Below are positions 23,888-28,996 of a stretch of DNA of 61,051 nt, in pieces (the stretch's first letter is position 1; the number at the start of each line of letters is the position of its first letter). The stretch lies in the NCBI GenBank assembly GCA_947038115.1, contig CAMQVF010000003.1, positions 1 through 61,051 of the forward strand, written 5' to 3'. The translations under genes and the position numbers were made by a program. Source of the DNA: an uncultured Spirochaetia bacterium. GTDB lineage: Bacteria; Spirochaetota; Brachyspiria; Brachyspirales; Brachyspiraceae. The notes below the pieces were generated by a model that saw nothing but the letters and a program-made list of their open reading frames with translations, did not search any database and had not been told where the DNA came from.

Positions 23888-24475
23888 CTATTGTTTATTA
23901 GCAAAAAGAGACAGAGCCTCTACTTTTGCTAAATTAACAGATTTAATAACGCTGTCAGTAGAAATTGTAGCTCCACTAATAGCAGAAATTTCATAATCAC
24001 CTGTGTCTTCTATCTTTACACCCTTAACACTTGAAAGGTCTTTATCTATAGCTTTCTTCACAAATTGAGACTTGAATAACTCATCATTTACTTTAGAACC
24101 AAGCCCCGGAGTCTCCGAATGTTCAGTGGCGACTACAGCTGTAATCTCTGTCACTGACGGATTAAATCCTACAAGAACATTAATTGGGCCATTATATCCA
24201 ACAGAGCTTGCTAAAATCGCATAACCAACAATATTATCATTAGTATTATATCCAATATAATAAGACAAATTAGAATTATCAAGATCCATTAATGGGCCAT
24301 CTATTTTATCAGCGCTAGCAATAGCCTCTTGTACCCCTTCGATAAGAGCACGTTGCTTGTTTAATTCTATATCAACTTCAAATTTCGAGTATATAAAAGA
24401 AAGTAAAAAACCTGAGATTAATGCAGTAAGTGTAACCGAAATAACAGCTGAATAACCAGCACCTTTTTTTTTCAT
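23888..24475 (-). CDS. rnfG: Rnf electron transport complex subunit G
   Basis: RnfG is the periplasm-facing flavoprotein of the ferredoxin:NAD oxidoreductase (Rnf) that couples electron transfer to ion pumping. The 195 aa protein has one N-terminal transmembrane helix (about residues 8-29) and an FMN-binding domain. The covalent FMN site is the Thr of SGATIST (near residue 168). VVATEHSETPGLGSKV is also typical of RnfG/NqrC. The ATG overlaps the rnfD stop by one base (TAATG), a sign of coupling. Confidence 0.95.
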   Translation of the reverse strand: MKKKGAGYSAVISVTLTALISGFLLSFIYSKFEVDIELNKQRALIEGVQEAIASADKIDGPLMDLDNSNLSYYIGYNTNDNIVGYAILASSVGYNGPINVLVGFNPSVTEITAVVATEHSETPGLGSKVNDELFKSQFVKKAIDKDLSSVKGVKIEDTGDYEISAISGATISTDSVIKSVNLAKVEALSLFANKQ

Positions 24476-25572
24476 TATTTACCCCCATTCGCAATAGTAC
24501 TTTCAAGTTTTTGAGCTTCAACTTTTCCTAAAGGTTTCTTAATAGTAAACATATCAATGAGTGGAACAATCATATTACCTATAAGTATAGAATAAAGCAT
24601 ATATTCAGCAGTGTGTCCAAACATACGAAGAAGTATTAATACAGCACCTATAAAAAAAGCATATATCCAAATACCTTTTTGAGTATTAGGAGAAGTTACC
24701 ATATCGGTTGCCATAAAGCAAGAACCTAAAGCAAATCCACCACCAAGTATTCCATATATAGGTGATCCATATGTTCCAGGATTAGTAAAGTTACCAATTA
24801 AATTTATAGTTACAAATGAAATTAAAATACCTAGTGGAATTCTCCAATTGATGGTTTTCGTAATAATAAGAAATATCGCACCAAGTGAAAGAAGTAAAAA
24901 AGAACCCTCCCCAATAGAACCTGCCGTATTACCTATAAACATTTGAAGATAATATACACTTTCAACTTTAATTTGGGTTAAAAAATCAAAAGGTATATAA
25001 TCAATATAAGTATACTTCATAAACGAAAGCGGTGTCGATTGTGTAAGTATATTTACAGGATCAATAGTAGCAATTGTACCACCAGTTATAGTGTCGGTAA
25101 AACCTTCTACAGTGCCACCAGTTATACCGAAAGGAATATTAACTATTTTAGGATAGGTAGACATTTCGCCAGGGAATGCCACTTGTAAAAAAGCACGCCC
25201 AACTAATGCAGGATTAAAAATATTACATCCCAGTCCGCCAAAAACTTCCTTAGCAAAAACTATAGCTATAACAGAACCTATCATGACTATAGGTATAGTA
25301 ACATTCGCCGTACAAGTCATTACTAATAAAAGTCCTGTAAGCACGGCTGACAAATCTTCTATATGTGGTTTTCGTTTTCTTAAAAGTTTTACAATAACTT
25401 CTGTAACTACACATGTAAGAATTGCTGTTGTGTAAAGTAAAATAACATGAGCACCAAAAACTATAACGCCGTATAGAGCCGCAGGAAGTAATGCGATAAT
25501 AACTCTACTCATAATTTTAGGCACACTATCACTAGCTTTAATATGCGGTGATGATTCTAAATTAAATTTCAT
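24475..25572 (-). CDS. rnfD: Rnf electron transport complex subunit D
   Basis: RnfD is an integral membrane flavoprotein of the Rnf complex, homologous to NqrB. The 365 aa protein has about 9-10 membrane segments. Family stretches are EVFGGLGCNIFNPALVGRAF and FMATDMVTSPNTQKG. The Thr of QSTPLSF aligns with the SxxTPL site that carries covalent FMN. The gene begins 5 nt after rnfC and ends in a TAATG overlap with rnfG. Confidence 0.95.
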   Translation of the reverse strand: MKFNLESSPHIKASDSVPKIMSRVIIALLPAALYGVIVFGAHVILLYTTAILTCVVTEVIVKLLRKRKPHIEDLSAVLTGLLLVMTCTANVTIPIVMIGSVIAIVFAKEVFGGLGCNIFNPALVGRAFLQVAFPGEMSTYPKIVNIPFGITGGTVEGFTDTITGGTIATIDPVNILTQSTPLSFMKYTYIDYIPFDFLTQIKVESVYYLQMFIGNTAGSIGEGSFLLLSLGAIFLIITKTINWRIPLGILISFVTINLIGNFTNPGTYGSPIYGILGGGFALGSCFMATDMVTSPNTQKGIWIYAFFIGAVLILLRMFGHTAEYMLYSILIGNMIVPLIDMFTIKKPLGKVEAQKLESTIANGGK

Positions 25573-25577
25573 AAAAC

Positions 25578-26882
25578 TTATCTCCTAAGTGTATCTTTTC
25601 CTACGCGAATCCACTGAACCAATGGTATTTTAGAAGAGCATATATAGGAACAAACCCCACATTCAAAACAGCTCATTATATCAAGTTTCATCATAGCTTC
25701 TTTATCGCCAGCCTTAGCCGCATGCGCTATTGAAGTAGGCATTAAATTCACAGGGCAAACTTGTAAACATCTTTCACAACTTATACAAGGATATTCTTTA
25801 GATTTTTTTATTTTATCTGCATCTAAAAATACTATAGAATTATTACCCTTAACAGTATTTCTATTAAGATCAGGTAATGTAAAACCCATCATAGGGCCTC
25901 CACCAAATAATAATAAATTCTCTGTAGTAATACCACCACAAGCCTCAGCGATATCAGCTATAGAAGTACCAAAAGGCACGACCATATTCTTTCTTTCTTT
26001 TATAGCATCCCCAGTAACTGTTACAATTCTTTCAATTAGTGGTTTGCTTTTTGCTACCGCTTCATAGATAGCGTAAAGAGTTGCTATATTAATTACCAAA
26101 ATACCGATATCAGGAGGAAATTTACCAACAGGAACTACTCGACCAGTAGCCGCATCGATAAGCATTTTTTCAGCACCTTGAGGATATCTTATTTTTAAAG
26201 GTAAAACTTCTATGTCACTATCTTTCGAACAAGTTCTAAATTCATTCAAGGCTTTTGGTTTATTATTTTCTATCCCAACAATTGTACGTTTAATTGAAGG
26301 AACTATTTTTTTTATTATATTAATAGCATGCATTATCTCATGCGAATGCTCAATCATAAGCCTGTAGTCGGATGTAATATAAGGCTCACATTCTACGCCA
26401 TTAACAAGAAAAACATCACAATTAGCTTTGACTGATCCAGAAATTTTCACATGCGTAGGAAACATTGCACCACCAAGCCCAACGACTCCAGCATCTTCAA
26501 TTTTTTTAAGCATTTCTTCTGCTGTCAAAGTCATAAAATTACTATTAACTTGGAATTCATCATCGACAATGCTAGCATCATTTTGAATTAAACATGCTAA
26601 ACTATTACGTCCCAATGGAACAGGTGCAATTTCAATGGATGAAATTTTTCCAGATATACTAGCATGGATATTAGCTGAAACAAAACCACTCGCCTTAGCA
26701 ATGACCTCGCCTCTTTTGACGATATCACCTTTAGCTTTAATGATTTCAGCAGGAGCTCCCACATGTTGTGCCGATGCTAATAAAACAGATTTAGGTTTAG
26801 GTAAAACCGTAGTATGTATTTCCGCGGCTTCTTTATGCTCATCAGGATGAACTCCTCCAAAACGAAATTTTCCTAGATTCAT
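25578..26882 (-). CDS. rnfC: Rnf electron transport complex subunit C
   Basis: RnfC is the cytoplasmic NADH-binding subunit of Rnf. The 434 aa protein opens with the RnfC barrel-sandwich segment (FRFGGVHPDEHKE), then the flavin/NADH region with GLGGAMFPTHVK and NGVECEPYITSDYRLM. Near the C-terminus are two 4Fe-4S motifs, CISCERCLQVCPVNLMP and CFECGVCSYICSSKIP. The length is near the family minimum and lacks the long C-terminal extension of some proteobacterial forms. It follows the KASIII-like gene by 23 nt. A weak GGGG-type ribosome site precedes it. Confidence 0.95.
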   Translation of the reverse strand: MNLGKFRFGGVHPDEHKEAAEIHTTVLPKPKSVLLASAQHVGAPAEIIKAKGDIVKRGEVIAKASGFVSANIHASISGKISSIEIAPVPLGRNSLACLIQNDASIVDDEFQVNSNFMTLTAEEMLKKIEDAGVVGLGGAMFPTHVKISGSVKANCDVFLVNGVECEPYITSDYRLMIEHSHEIMHAINIIKKIVPSIKRTIVGIENNKPKALNEFRTCSKDSDIEVLPLKIRYPQGAEKMLIDAATGRVVPVGKFPPDIGILVINIATLYAIYEAVAKSKPLIERIVTVTGDAIKERKNMVVPFGTSIADIAEACGGITTENLLLFGGGPMMGFTLPDLNRNTVKGNNSIVFLDADKIKKSKEYPCISCERCLQVCPVNLMPTSIAHAAKAGDKEAMMKLDIMSCFECGVCSYICSSKIPLVQWIRVGKDTLRR

Positions 26883-26905: not shown

Positions 26906-27760
26906 TTAATTATAACTAAAAACCGCCAAAGATTTGCTATATCCAAACCCATAACTACAAACAGCTATTTTATCACCTTTCTTTATAGCCCCATCAGCCA
27001 GTGCCATAGAAAAATTAATCCCCGATGAAGCACCTATAGCCGATTTAAAGTCTTTCATTTTAGAGTAAACTTTATCAGAAAATTCCCCTAAAGAAGACAC
27101 AAATGCATTATAACATTTCTCGCCACCTAAAGAAGGTATAATTATACTTGGATTAATATTGTTTTTATTAAGAATTTCTAAAGCGTAAATGCCCGCTTCT
27201 TTGGCAGAGATTTCGAAAATATCTTTATTCTTTATATGGATAAAATGTTCTTTATTTTGAATACCTTCCTTCGTATAAGGATGAACCGTTCCACCCATAG
27301 GTATAAGAAATTCATTTAATTTAGAACCATCAGAAACATAATCGATAAAATCAATTGAAATATCTGACTTTTCGCTTGTAACGAGTACAGATGCAACGCC
27401 GTCAGCAAAGCTATCGTCGCCATCGCACATAAAAGTAGATTCAACTGCAGAAACTAAAATATTATTATAACGACCACTTTCAACAAATGCATAAGCCGAC
27501 TTTAATGCAGATAAAAAACCTGAAAAATCAGCCTCAATATCATATGCAAAAGCATTATTGCAATTAAGTTTACTCGCCAAATTACAAGCGGTTGCGGGAT
27601 AAACATAATCCCTAGTTATTGTAGCGACCAAAACAGCATCAATCGAATCTGCGCTAATATTTTCTATAGATTTCTTAGCCGATTCTAATGCCAAATCAGA
27701 AGCTATCAAATTTGTTTTTTTATTTTCGTATATATGAGAGAATGATTTTATATAAACCAT
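26906..27760 (-). CDS. KASIII (FabH)-like protein lacking all catalytic residues
   Basis: This 284 aa protein has the thiolase fold of 3-oxoacyl-ACP synthase III but is shorter than FabH (about 315-330 aa). The segment AYDIEADFSGFLSAL matches the FabH nucleophile block, with Phe79 where the catalytic Cys belongs. The PHQAN block is PSLGG (His to Ser210). The GNT block is GAS (Asn to Ala244). C-H-N are thus all replaced, and ordinary condensation is not expected. The fold is otherwise kept, including the SYGFGYSKSLAVF end strand. It overlaps plsX by one base (TAATG), the usual place of fabH, so it probably descends from fabH and may now bind acyl groups or act structurally. There is no frameshift or stop, so it is not a simple pseudogene. 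Confidence 0.82.
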   Translation of the reverse strand: MVYIKSFSHIYENKKTNLIASDLALESAKKSIENISADSIDAVLVATITRDYVYPATACNLASKLNCNNAFAYDIEADFSGFLSALKSAYAFVESGRYNNILVSAVESTFMCDGDDSFADGVASVLVTSEKSDISIDFIDYVSDGSKLNEFLIPMGGTVHPYTKEGIQNKEHFIHIKNKDIFEISAKEAGIYALEILNKNNINPSIIIPSLGGEKCYNAFVSSLGEFSDKVYSKMKDFKSAIGASSGINFSMALADGAIKKGDKIAVCSYGFGYSKSLAVFSYN

Positions 27761-28779
27761 TAAAATATTCCTTTTTTCTTAACTCCCGCACTCTGAAGCT
27801 CTTTAGTTATATGTTCATTAACTTTAGCTTGCAAAACTCCATACATTGTATCAATAGCACTCTTCATTCCCAAAGCAGTTGTTTTACCATGCCCAACGAA
27901 AGCACCACCCTTAAGACCCAATAAAATAGCCGATCCATAATAATCAGAACTAACTTTATTTTTAAGTTTACTAAACACAGGCTTCATAAGCAAAGCTCCG
28001 ACAGTAGAGGCAGGATTTCTCTTGACTTCTTCCTTAATTAAAGAAGCAACATAAGAAGCTGTTCCTTCCATAGTCTTAAGTACAAGATTACCACTAAAAC
28101 CATCGGCGACAACCACATCAGCCTTATCAGCTTTAAGCATGTCATTAGGTTCTATATTACCGACAAAATTTATATTTAGTTTCTCTAAGCGTTCAAAAGT
28201 CCTCTTATATAAAGCATTTCCTTTAGAATCTTCTTCACCAATATTAAGTAAAGCTATTCTTGGATTTCTTATATCTCTATATCTTTTAGCAAAAACGCTA
28301 CCCATTACAGCAAATTGAACTAAATATTCTGGAGTACAATCAACATTCGCACCCATATCGAGCATGCAAATATCTTGAAATTTGTTAGGCAAAACAGACA
28401 TAAGCGGAGGACGCATAACGCCTTTAAGCCGACCAATTTCTATTAGACCCGCAGCTAAAGTTGCCCCAGTATTGCCAGGAGAGAAAAAAGCATCAGCTTC
28501 TCCACTTCCAACCATACGTGCAGCAATCATAACTGAAGAATTACGCTTTTGTTTTATAGCAATTGAAGGAGACTCAGACATCCCAATAACGTCTTCAGCA
28601 TGCTTAATAATTATTTGAGAACTATCAAATTTTTTCTTATTAAGAGCTTTTTCAATTTCATGGTCGTCACCAACTAAAGTAAGAATTATGTCGCTATTTT
28701 GATTTACAGCCTCAAGACAGCCAATAATTAATTCTTCTAATGGTCTTTCGCCACTTGCTATATCTACTGCGATTTTCAT
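27760..28779 (-). CDS. plsX: Phosphate acyltransferase PlsX
   Basis: PlsX converts acyl-ACP to acyl-phosphate for phospholipid synthesis with PlsY. The 339 aa protein shows the family start KIAVDIASGERPLEELIIG (usually D-x-MGGD; here the glycines differ), SPGNTGATLAAG, DMGANVDCTPEYLVQFA, ALLNIGEEDSKGN, VVADGFSGNLVLKTMEG and the closing YGSAILLGLKGGAFVGHG. Cytoplasmic, peripheral to the membrane. It follows rpmF by 25 nt, the common rpmF-plsX order, and overlaps the KASIII-like gene by one base. Confidence 0.96.
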   Translation of the reverse strand: MKIAVDIASGERPLEELIIGCLEAVNQNSDIILTLVGDDHEIEKALNKKKFDSSQIIIKHAEDVIGMSESPSIAIKQKRNSSVMIAARMVGSGEADAFFSPGNTGATLAAGLIEIGRLKGVMRPPLMSVLPNKFQDICMLDMGANVDCTPEYLVQFAVMGSVFAKRYRDIRNPRIALLNIGEEDSKGNALYKRTFERLEKLNINFVGNIEPNDMLKADKADVVVADGFSGNLVLKTMEGTASYVASLIKEEVKRNPASTVGALLMKPVFSKLKNKVSSDYYGSAILLGLKGGAFVGHGKTTALGMKSAIDTMYGVLQAKVNEHITKELQSAGVKKKGIF

Positions 28780-28804: not shown

Positions 28805-28996
28805 TTAAGCATTTTGATTTTTAGGCGCTTTAACTACTCTATCTTTGTAAAAACCACATTGTGGGCATACTCTATGAGGTAATTTTTCAATTCCGCATTG
28901 AGGACATAAAGATAATTCCCCTAAAAAACGTTTATCATTAGCACTTTGTCTTGAATTTCTTTTCGCTTTCGATGTGCGATGTTTTGGTACAGCCAT
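28805..28996 (-). CDS. rpmF: 50S ribosomal protein L32
   Basis: The 63 aa protein starts MAVPKHRTSKAKRNSRQ, the hallmark of L32, and keeps the zinc-ribbon cysteines (CPQC and CPQC, about residues 32-51). The length is slightly above the usual 56-60 aa. AAGGAA lies upstream of the start. It is the first gene of the rpmF-plsX-KASIII-like-rnf cluster. Confidence 0.97.
   Translation of the reverse strand: MAVPKHRTSKAKRNSRQSANDKRFLGELSLCPQCGIEKLPHRVCPQCGFYKDRVVKAPKNQNA

Follow-up and report, generated by a model that had tools for sequence, protein, structure and literature searches.

A triad-less KASIII-fold protein kept by selection in the rpmF-plsX operon of a spirochaete family

The window, the whole stretch of 61,051 nucleotides of contig C3 that was analysed, carries on its minus strand, in order, rpmF, plsX, a gene for a KASIII-fold protein, rnfC, rnfD and rnfG. 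A first-pass annotation made from the sequence had described the third of these as a catalytically dead FabH paralogue with an open frame and a coupled start after plsX, and both the frame (284 aa) and the TAATG coupling were confirmed in the window sequence. The features are the following:

28805..28996, minus strand: rpmF (ribosomal protein L32), which heads the rpmF-plsX-fabH gene order
27760..28779, minus strand: plsX, directly upstream of the KASIII-fold gene in 28/28 assessable family genomes
27758..27762, minus strand: TAATG overlap, with one base common to the plsX stop and the KASIII-fold gene start
26906..27760, minus strand: gene of the non-catalytic KASIII-fold (FabH-fold) protein, 284 aa, recognised from its ORF, domain matches, orthologues and predicted model
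27599..27601, minus strand: Tyr54 codon, aligned with FabH residue 87; invariant in orthologues
27524..27526, minus strand: Phe79 codon, in place of the catalytic Cys112; the 28 orthologues covering the site all have Phe
27131..27133, minus strand: Ser210 codon, in place of the catalytic His244; every orthologue has Ser
27041..27043, minus strand: Ser240 codon, in place of the catalytic Asn274; mostly Ser in orthologues, with one Pro and one Cys
25578..26882, minus strand: rnfC, the next gene downstream of the KASIII-fold gene

Two Pfam families match the protein above their cut-offs (ACP_syn_III, PF08545, 29.6 bits against 24; ACP_syn_III_C, PF08541, 27.0 bits against 26.6), and the fabH model TIGR00747 matches it with an E of 7.7e-37 at 127.1 bits, far below the cut-off of 292.1. 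An earlier AlphaFold model from a two-row alignment (pLDDT 52) was too poor for use; the model used here is of moderate confidence (pLDDT 69, pTM 0.71) and has the thiolase/KASIII fold end to end, with residues 1-284 aligning to FabH, PqsD and OleA at Z 23-24, while Foldseek aligned the whole length of this predicted model with KASIII structures (E 2.8e-19). SpoVAD, a KASIII/thiolase-fold spore protein that has no known condensing role and is reported to bind dipicolinic acid, is also among the fold matches, but its Pfam family does not match the protein, the two ACP_syn_III families being the only ones that do. The GrdC model NF040746 of NCBIfam is not among the matches either, and PqsB is absent among the 60 sequence matches listed, which says nothing on membership.

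Alignment of the protein with the genome's own FabH and the 28 orthologues placed Cys112 on Phe79 and His244 on Ser210, as the first-pass annotation had proposed, while the third catalytic position had been misassigned to Ala244, which is the conserved Ala of a GNTSxAS motif; Asn274 falls on Ser240. The catalytic Asn is kept in none of the orthologues. Fixation of the three substitutions is therefore true of the Phe and the Ser, and the loss of the Asn is general, but the residue that replaces it varies. No Cys-His-Asn constellation was found elsewhere in the protein. The changes extend to the CoA/ACP surface: about 33 residues that follow the first strand and precede the next helix, among them the CoA-binding (CoA-stacking) Trp32 and Arg36, are missing in every orthologue covering the region, the Arg151 loop is shorter by about five residues (with an Arg nearby in many orthologues and a Ser in the window protein), and Asn247 and Arg249 are not kept as a pair, HQANxR having become, for example, SLGGEK. 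The triad and the CoA residues are kept in 30 of the 30 active FabHs compared, and a wider comparison set included one FabH in which His stands in for Arg36, and two distant KASIIIs without Arg36 and Arg151. The FabH fold, claimed to be intact, thus does span residues 1-284 in the moderate-confidence model, but not without the loss of these two stretches.

Each of the 29 family genomes has an orthologue, cut short by a contig end in one case, and the frame is open in all 28 that could be assessed. A profile of the group, searched against 247 genomes of the phylum, did not find this kind of protein outside the family: the weakest full-length orthologue scored 426 bits, compared with 178 bits for the best match outside, an active FabH, and the outside matches were all long, with frames of about 325-365 aa. 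In a scan of genome contigs, the window protein as a single query matched only L003, a Bacteroidota MAG, through its canonical FabH. Viral contigs gave no match to the KASIII-fold family or to the genome's FabH, and a single FabH when searched with the active-FabH alignment.

Median pairwise dN/dS of the KASIII-fold gene among close species is 0.087 (0.055 for plsX and 0.067 for rnfC), which indicates purifying selection. Together with the family-wide Cys and His replacements and the loss of the Asn from all orthologues, this bears out the proposal of a retained but changed function. A once-active fabH in recent decay, that is, a pseudogene in progress, would find nothing in its favor beyond the triad loss, and open frames in 28/28 assessable genomes, the same Cys-to-Phe and His-to-Ser changes and a dN/dS of 0.09 leave it next to no probability. 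Orthologues with an intact triad in sister strains, which the first-pass annotation had named as the sign of such decay, were looked for in the family, and none was found. We consider decay, as well as chance, refuted by the 29/29 presence, the shared replacements and the low dN/dS. The protein is a family-wide KASIII pseudoenzyme that has neither the triad nor the cap segment nor a CoA/ACP-binding surface, and it is kept by selection.

The neighborhood of the gene had also been taken to hint at an organizing role with Rnf. Directly 3′ of the KASIII-fold gene, rnfC is found in 26 family genomes; in G005 it lies about 211 kb away and an ankyrin-repeat gene takes its place, in G002 a different contig carries it and an opposite-strand gene follows the KASIII-fold gene, and in G023 about 1.5 kb separate the two. 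Because rnfC is displaced in the first two genomes and interrupted from the KASIII-fold gene in the third, an organizing role is not indicated, and we rejected a dedicated Rnf role. The gene at the usual rnfC site in G005 (L029:2368-3360) is lipoprotein-like. The Rnf genes of the window's own genome are split. The window has rnfC-rnfD-rnfG at 23888-26882; beyond them come an ORF for a lipoprotein-like product of 326 aa and, after it, ORFs resembling dnaG and rpoD. The two RnfA/RnfE-family genes are together on another contig (C1:86108-87321).

Gene order bears as well on whether the gene could be retained mainly for the architecture of the operon, as a spacer or translational coupler between plsX and rnf with little function of its protein. 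The TAATG coupling in the window and the conserved gene order speak for this, but purifying selection acts at the amino-acid level, plsX and the KASIII-fold gene lie about 20 bases apart and do not overlap in most family genomes, and the KASIII-fold gene is intact in genomes from which rnfC has moved away, making this a highly improbable explanation.

The position after plsX, which the first-pass annotation described as coupled, is the ordinary position of fabH and not a new coupling. A full-length FabH with its triad occupies the rpmF-plsX slot in the order's sister family (G029 and G030), and the tree joins a second FabH, encoded elsewhere in these genomes, to the active FabHs of the window's family at 100/99. 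The order rpmF-plsX-fabH with an intact triad also occurs in six other spirochaetes (L042, L043, L046, L047, L049 and L051). Because these genomes hold an active FabH in the slot, the KASIII-fold gene is most simply a former operon fabH turned pseudoenzyme. In the tree, the group sits on a long branch (1.08), and the AU test retained it both with the plsX-linked FabHs (p 0.235) and with the other FabHs (p 0.092); the tree leaves descent from either lineage undecided, and we infer the operon origin from gene order. The operon copy would have become inactive in the family's ancestor, and the other FabH copy would have taken over the chemistry.

A second, active fabH was found in every family genome: all 29 have at least one canonical FabH, and at most two, scoring above the curated cut-off, so the absence of an active FabH is rejected. 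In the window's genome, the canonical fabH, with a complete triad, lies at C1:74493-75455 and is thus unlinked from the KASIII-fold gene, and fabD and pieces of fabF at contig ends are also present. The KASIII-fold gene had been thought to explain how the organism starts fatty-acid synthesis, or to point to the import of fatty acids. Since canonical FabH, fabD and fabF pieces are present, fatty-acid synthesis needs no special explanation; the first suggestion is not supported, and import is rejected on the same grounds. An old duplication has left most family genomes with two canonical FabHs, and a single one is found in the window's genome, G001, G005, G011, G023 and others, in contrast to most of genus g3. 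One of the two fabH copies of G021 (L073, G021:C1:1774000-1781000) seems broken, its match being split near residue 50, and the other is intact.

What selection maintains in the protein was approached through mean pairwise identity per segment, compared with active FabH in matched species and with boundaries taken from known FabH architecture. Background identity is 0.66 in the KASIII-fold group and 0.72 in active FabH. The dimer-side blocks of the group stand at 0.80 (residues 84-95) and 0.81 (103-124), the long loop 186-214 is at 0.81 compared with 0.57 in active FabH, and the His loop 246-262 has fallen to 0.54 compared with 0.83. A circular-shift test of the dimer blocks gave p ~0.009, a modest value for blocks picked from known FabH architecture. 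Selection has moved off the catalytic wall and stays on the segments that form the FabH dimer face and on the loop over it, and we therefore read it as acting on the subunit-pairing face. In FabH, residue 87 sets acyl-chain preference, and in PqsD it is supplied by the second monomer (PMC3734052); the invariant Tyr54 would occupy the place where this residue lines the acyl pocket of the partner.

Cys59, His172, Asp78 and Ser210 are invariant in the orthologues, which, along with the low dN/dS, could be expected of a new enzymatic activity that uses other residues of the same fold. Cys59 and His172 fall, however, on the dimer-side helix and in the region of the long loop, away from the catalytic center, Cys112 of the protein itself varies among orthologues, and with no Cys-His-Asn constellation to build on, we regard a new activity as distinctly improbable. 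Somewhat better, yet still unlikely, is a ligand-binding homodimer, in which the KASIII fold would sense a small molecule or an acyl group in a remodeled pocket, much as SpoVAD does. The fold is kept, SpoVAD is among its matches, and a conserved motif, IPMGG-PYT(K/R)EG-NKEH, spans residues 153-172 of the group, but the CoA/ACP entrance residues and the cap are lost, the Cys has given way to Phe, and the wall formed by the His loop is below background conservation. Acyl-chain sensing, one of the roles suggested in the first-pass annotation, is disfavored because the CoA/ACP surface is gone and a Phe replaces the acyl-bearing Cys.

We favor a contact-based, non-catalytic role in FabH/PlsX function, to which we give a probability of about 0.55. 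The KASIII-fold protein would act by protein contact as a non-catalytic subunit, the unlinked canonical FabH doing the chemistry, and its partner or regulatory target would be the active FabH, PlsX or both. A partnership with PlsX is possible by analogy, because plsX adjoins the gene in 28/28 genomes and the same genome encodes a FabH-like/PlsX-like pair, GrdC and GrdD; as a sign of contact, the adjacency is weak, since the gene order is inherited. No contact between FabH and PlsX was found in the portions of the literature consulted. More tentatively, and at somewhat less than even odds, the FabH of a housekeeping operon may have become, across the whole family, a non-catalytic subunit dedicated to coupling FabH, at initiation, with PlsX, at acyl-phosphate formation. 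If so, a regulatory or scaffolding layer, so far not looked for, would lie between fatty-acid initiation and phospholipid synthesis. The family in which this pseudoenzyme is fixed in the core rpmF-plsX operon includes Brachyspira, according to the attribution in the first-pass annotation; our literature search found nothing published on an inactive FabH paralogue of Brachyspira, nor any paper that combines pseudoenzyme, FabH and ketosynthase. In practice, automatic annotation can name the KASIII-fold gene fabH although the active enzyme is encoded elsewhere.

Compared with known systems, the protein is closest in setting to FabH of the rpmF-plsX-fabH operon, with which it has in common the gene position, the fold and end-to-end homology at about 30% identity; FabH differs in having about 325 aa, the Cys, His and Asn, the CoA/ACP residues and the cap, all of which the 284-aa protein lacks. 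A KASIII-like gene also adjoins a PlsX-like gene in glycine reductase component C, which is encoded in the window's genome. GrdC (L078:9340-10902) is KASIII-like and GrdD PlsX-like by Pfam, the models name them as the beta and alpha subunits of component C, and we take them to form one component physically. GrdC, however, has 520 aa, a DUF5940 domain and a Cys kept in a DIRGFCAAP motif, and the KASIII-fold protein does not match its model. About 2.4 kb separate the glycine reductase cluster with GrdC and GrdD (L078:5971-12070) from the canonical fabH (L078:14491-15462, minus strand); the GrdA of the cluster, found in 13/29 family genomes, reads through one TGA.

Closer in kind to the proposed role are two heterodimers. 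PqsB lacks all three catalytic residues and probably acts as a scaffold in the FabH-like dimer that it forms with PqsC (PMC4807248). It is KASIII-like and triad-less, as is the protein described here, and leaves catalysis to another KASIII (PMC4807248), but it is encoded together with PqsC in a signal-biosynthesis operon, whereas the gene described here occupies the housekeeping rpmF-plsX slot with the active FabH unlinked. LstB is the divergent KASIII-like partner of the triad-bearing KASIII subunit in the lipstatin synthase LstAB (PMC12141560), and it differs in giving Glu60 to catalysis, in always clustering with LstA and in belonging to secondary metabolism (PMC12141560). As in these systems, the triad is absent and an active KASIII is retained in the same genome, but both precedents adjoin the gene of their catalytic partner, whereas here the canonical fabH is on contig C1 and the KASIII-fold gene on C3. 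Triad-less KASIII subunits have thus been described for secondary metabolism, in PqsB and LstB, and the slot occupied here is one of primary lipid metabolism.
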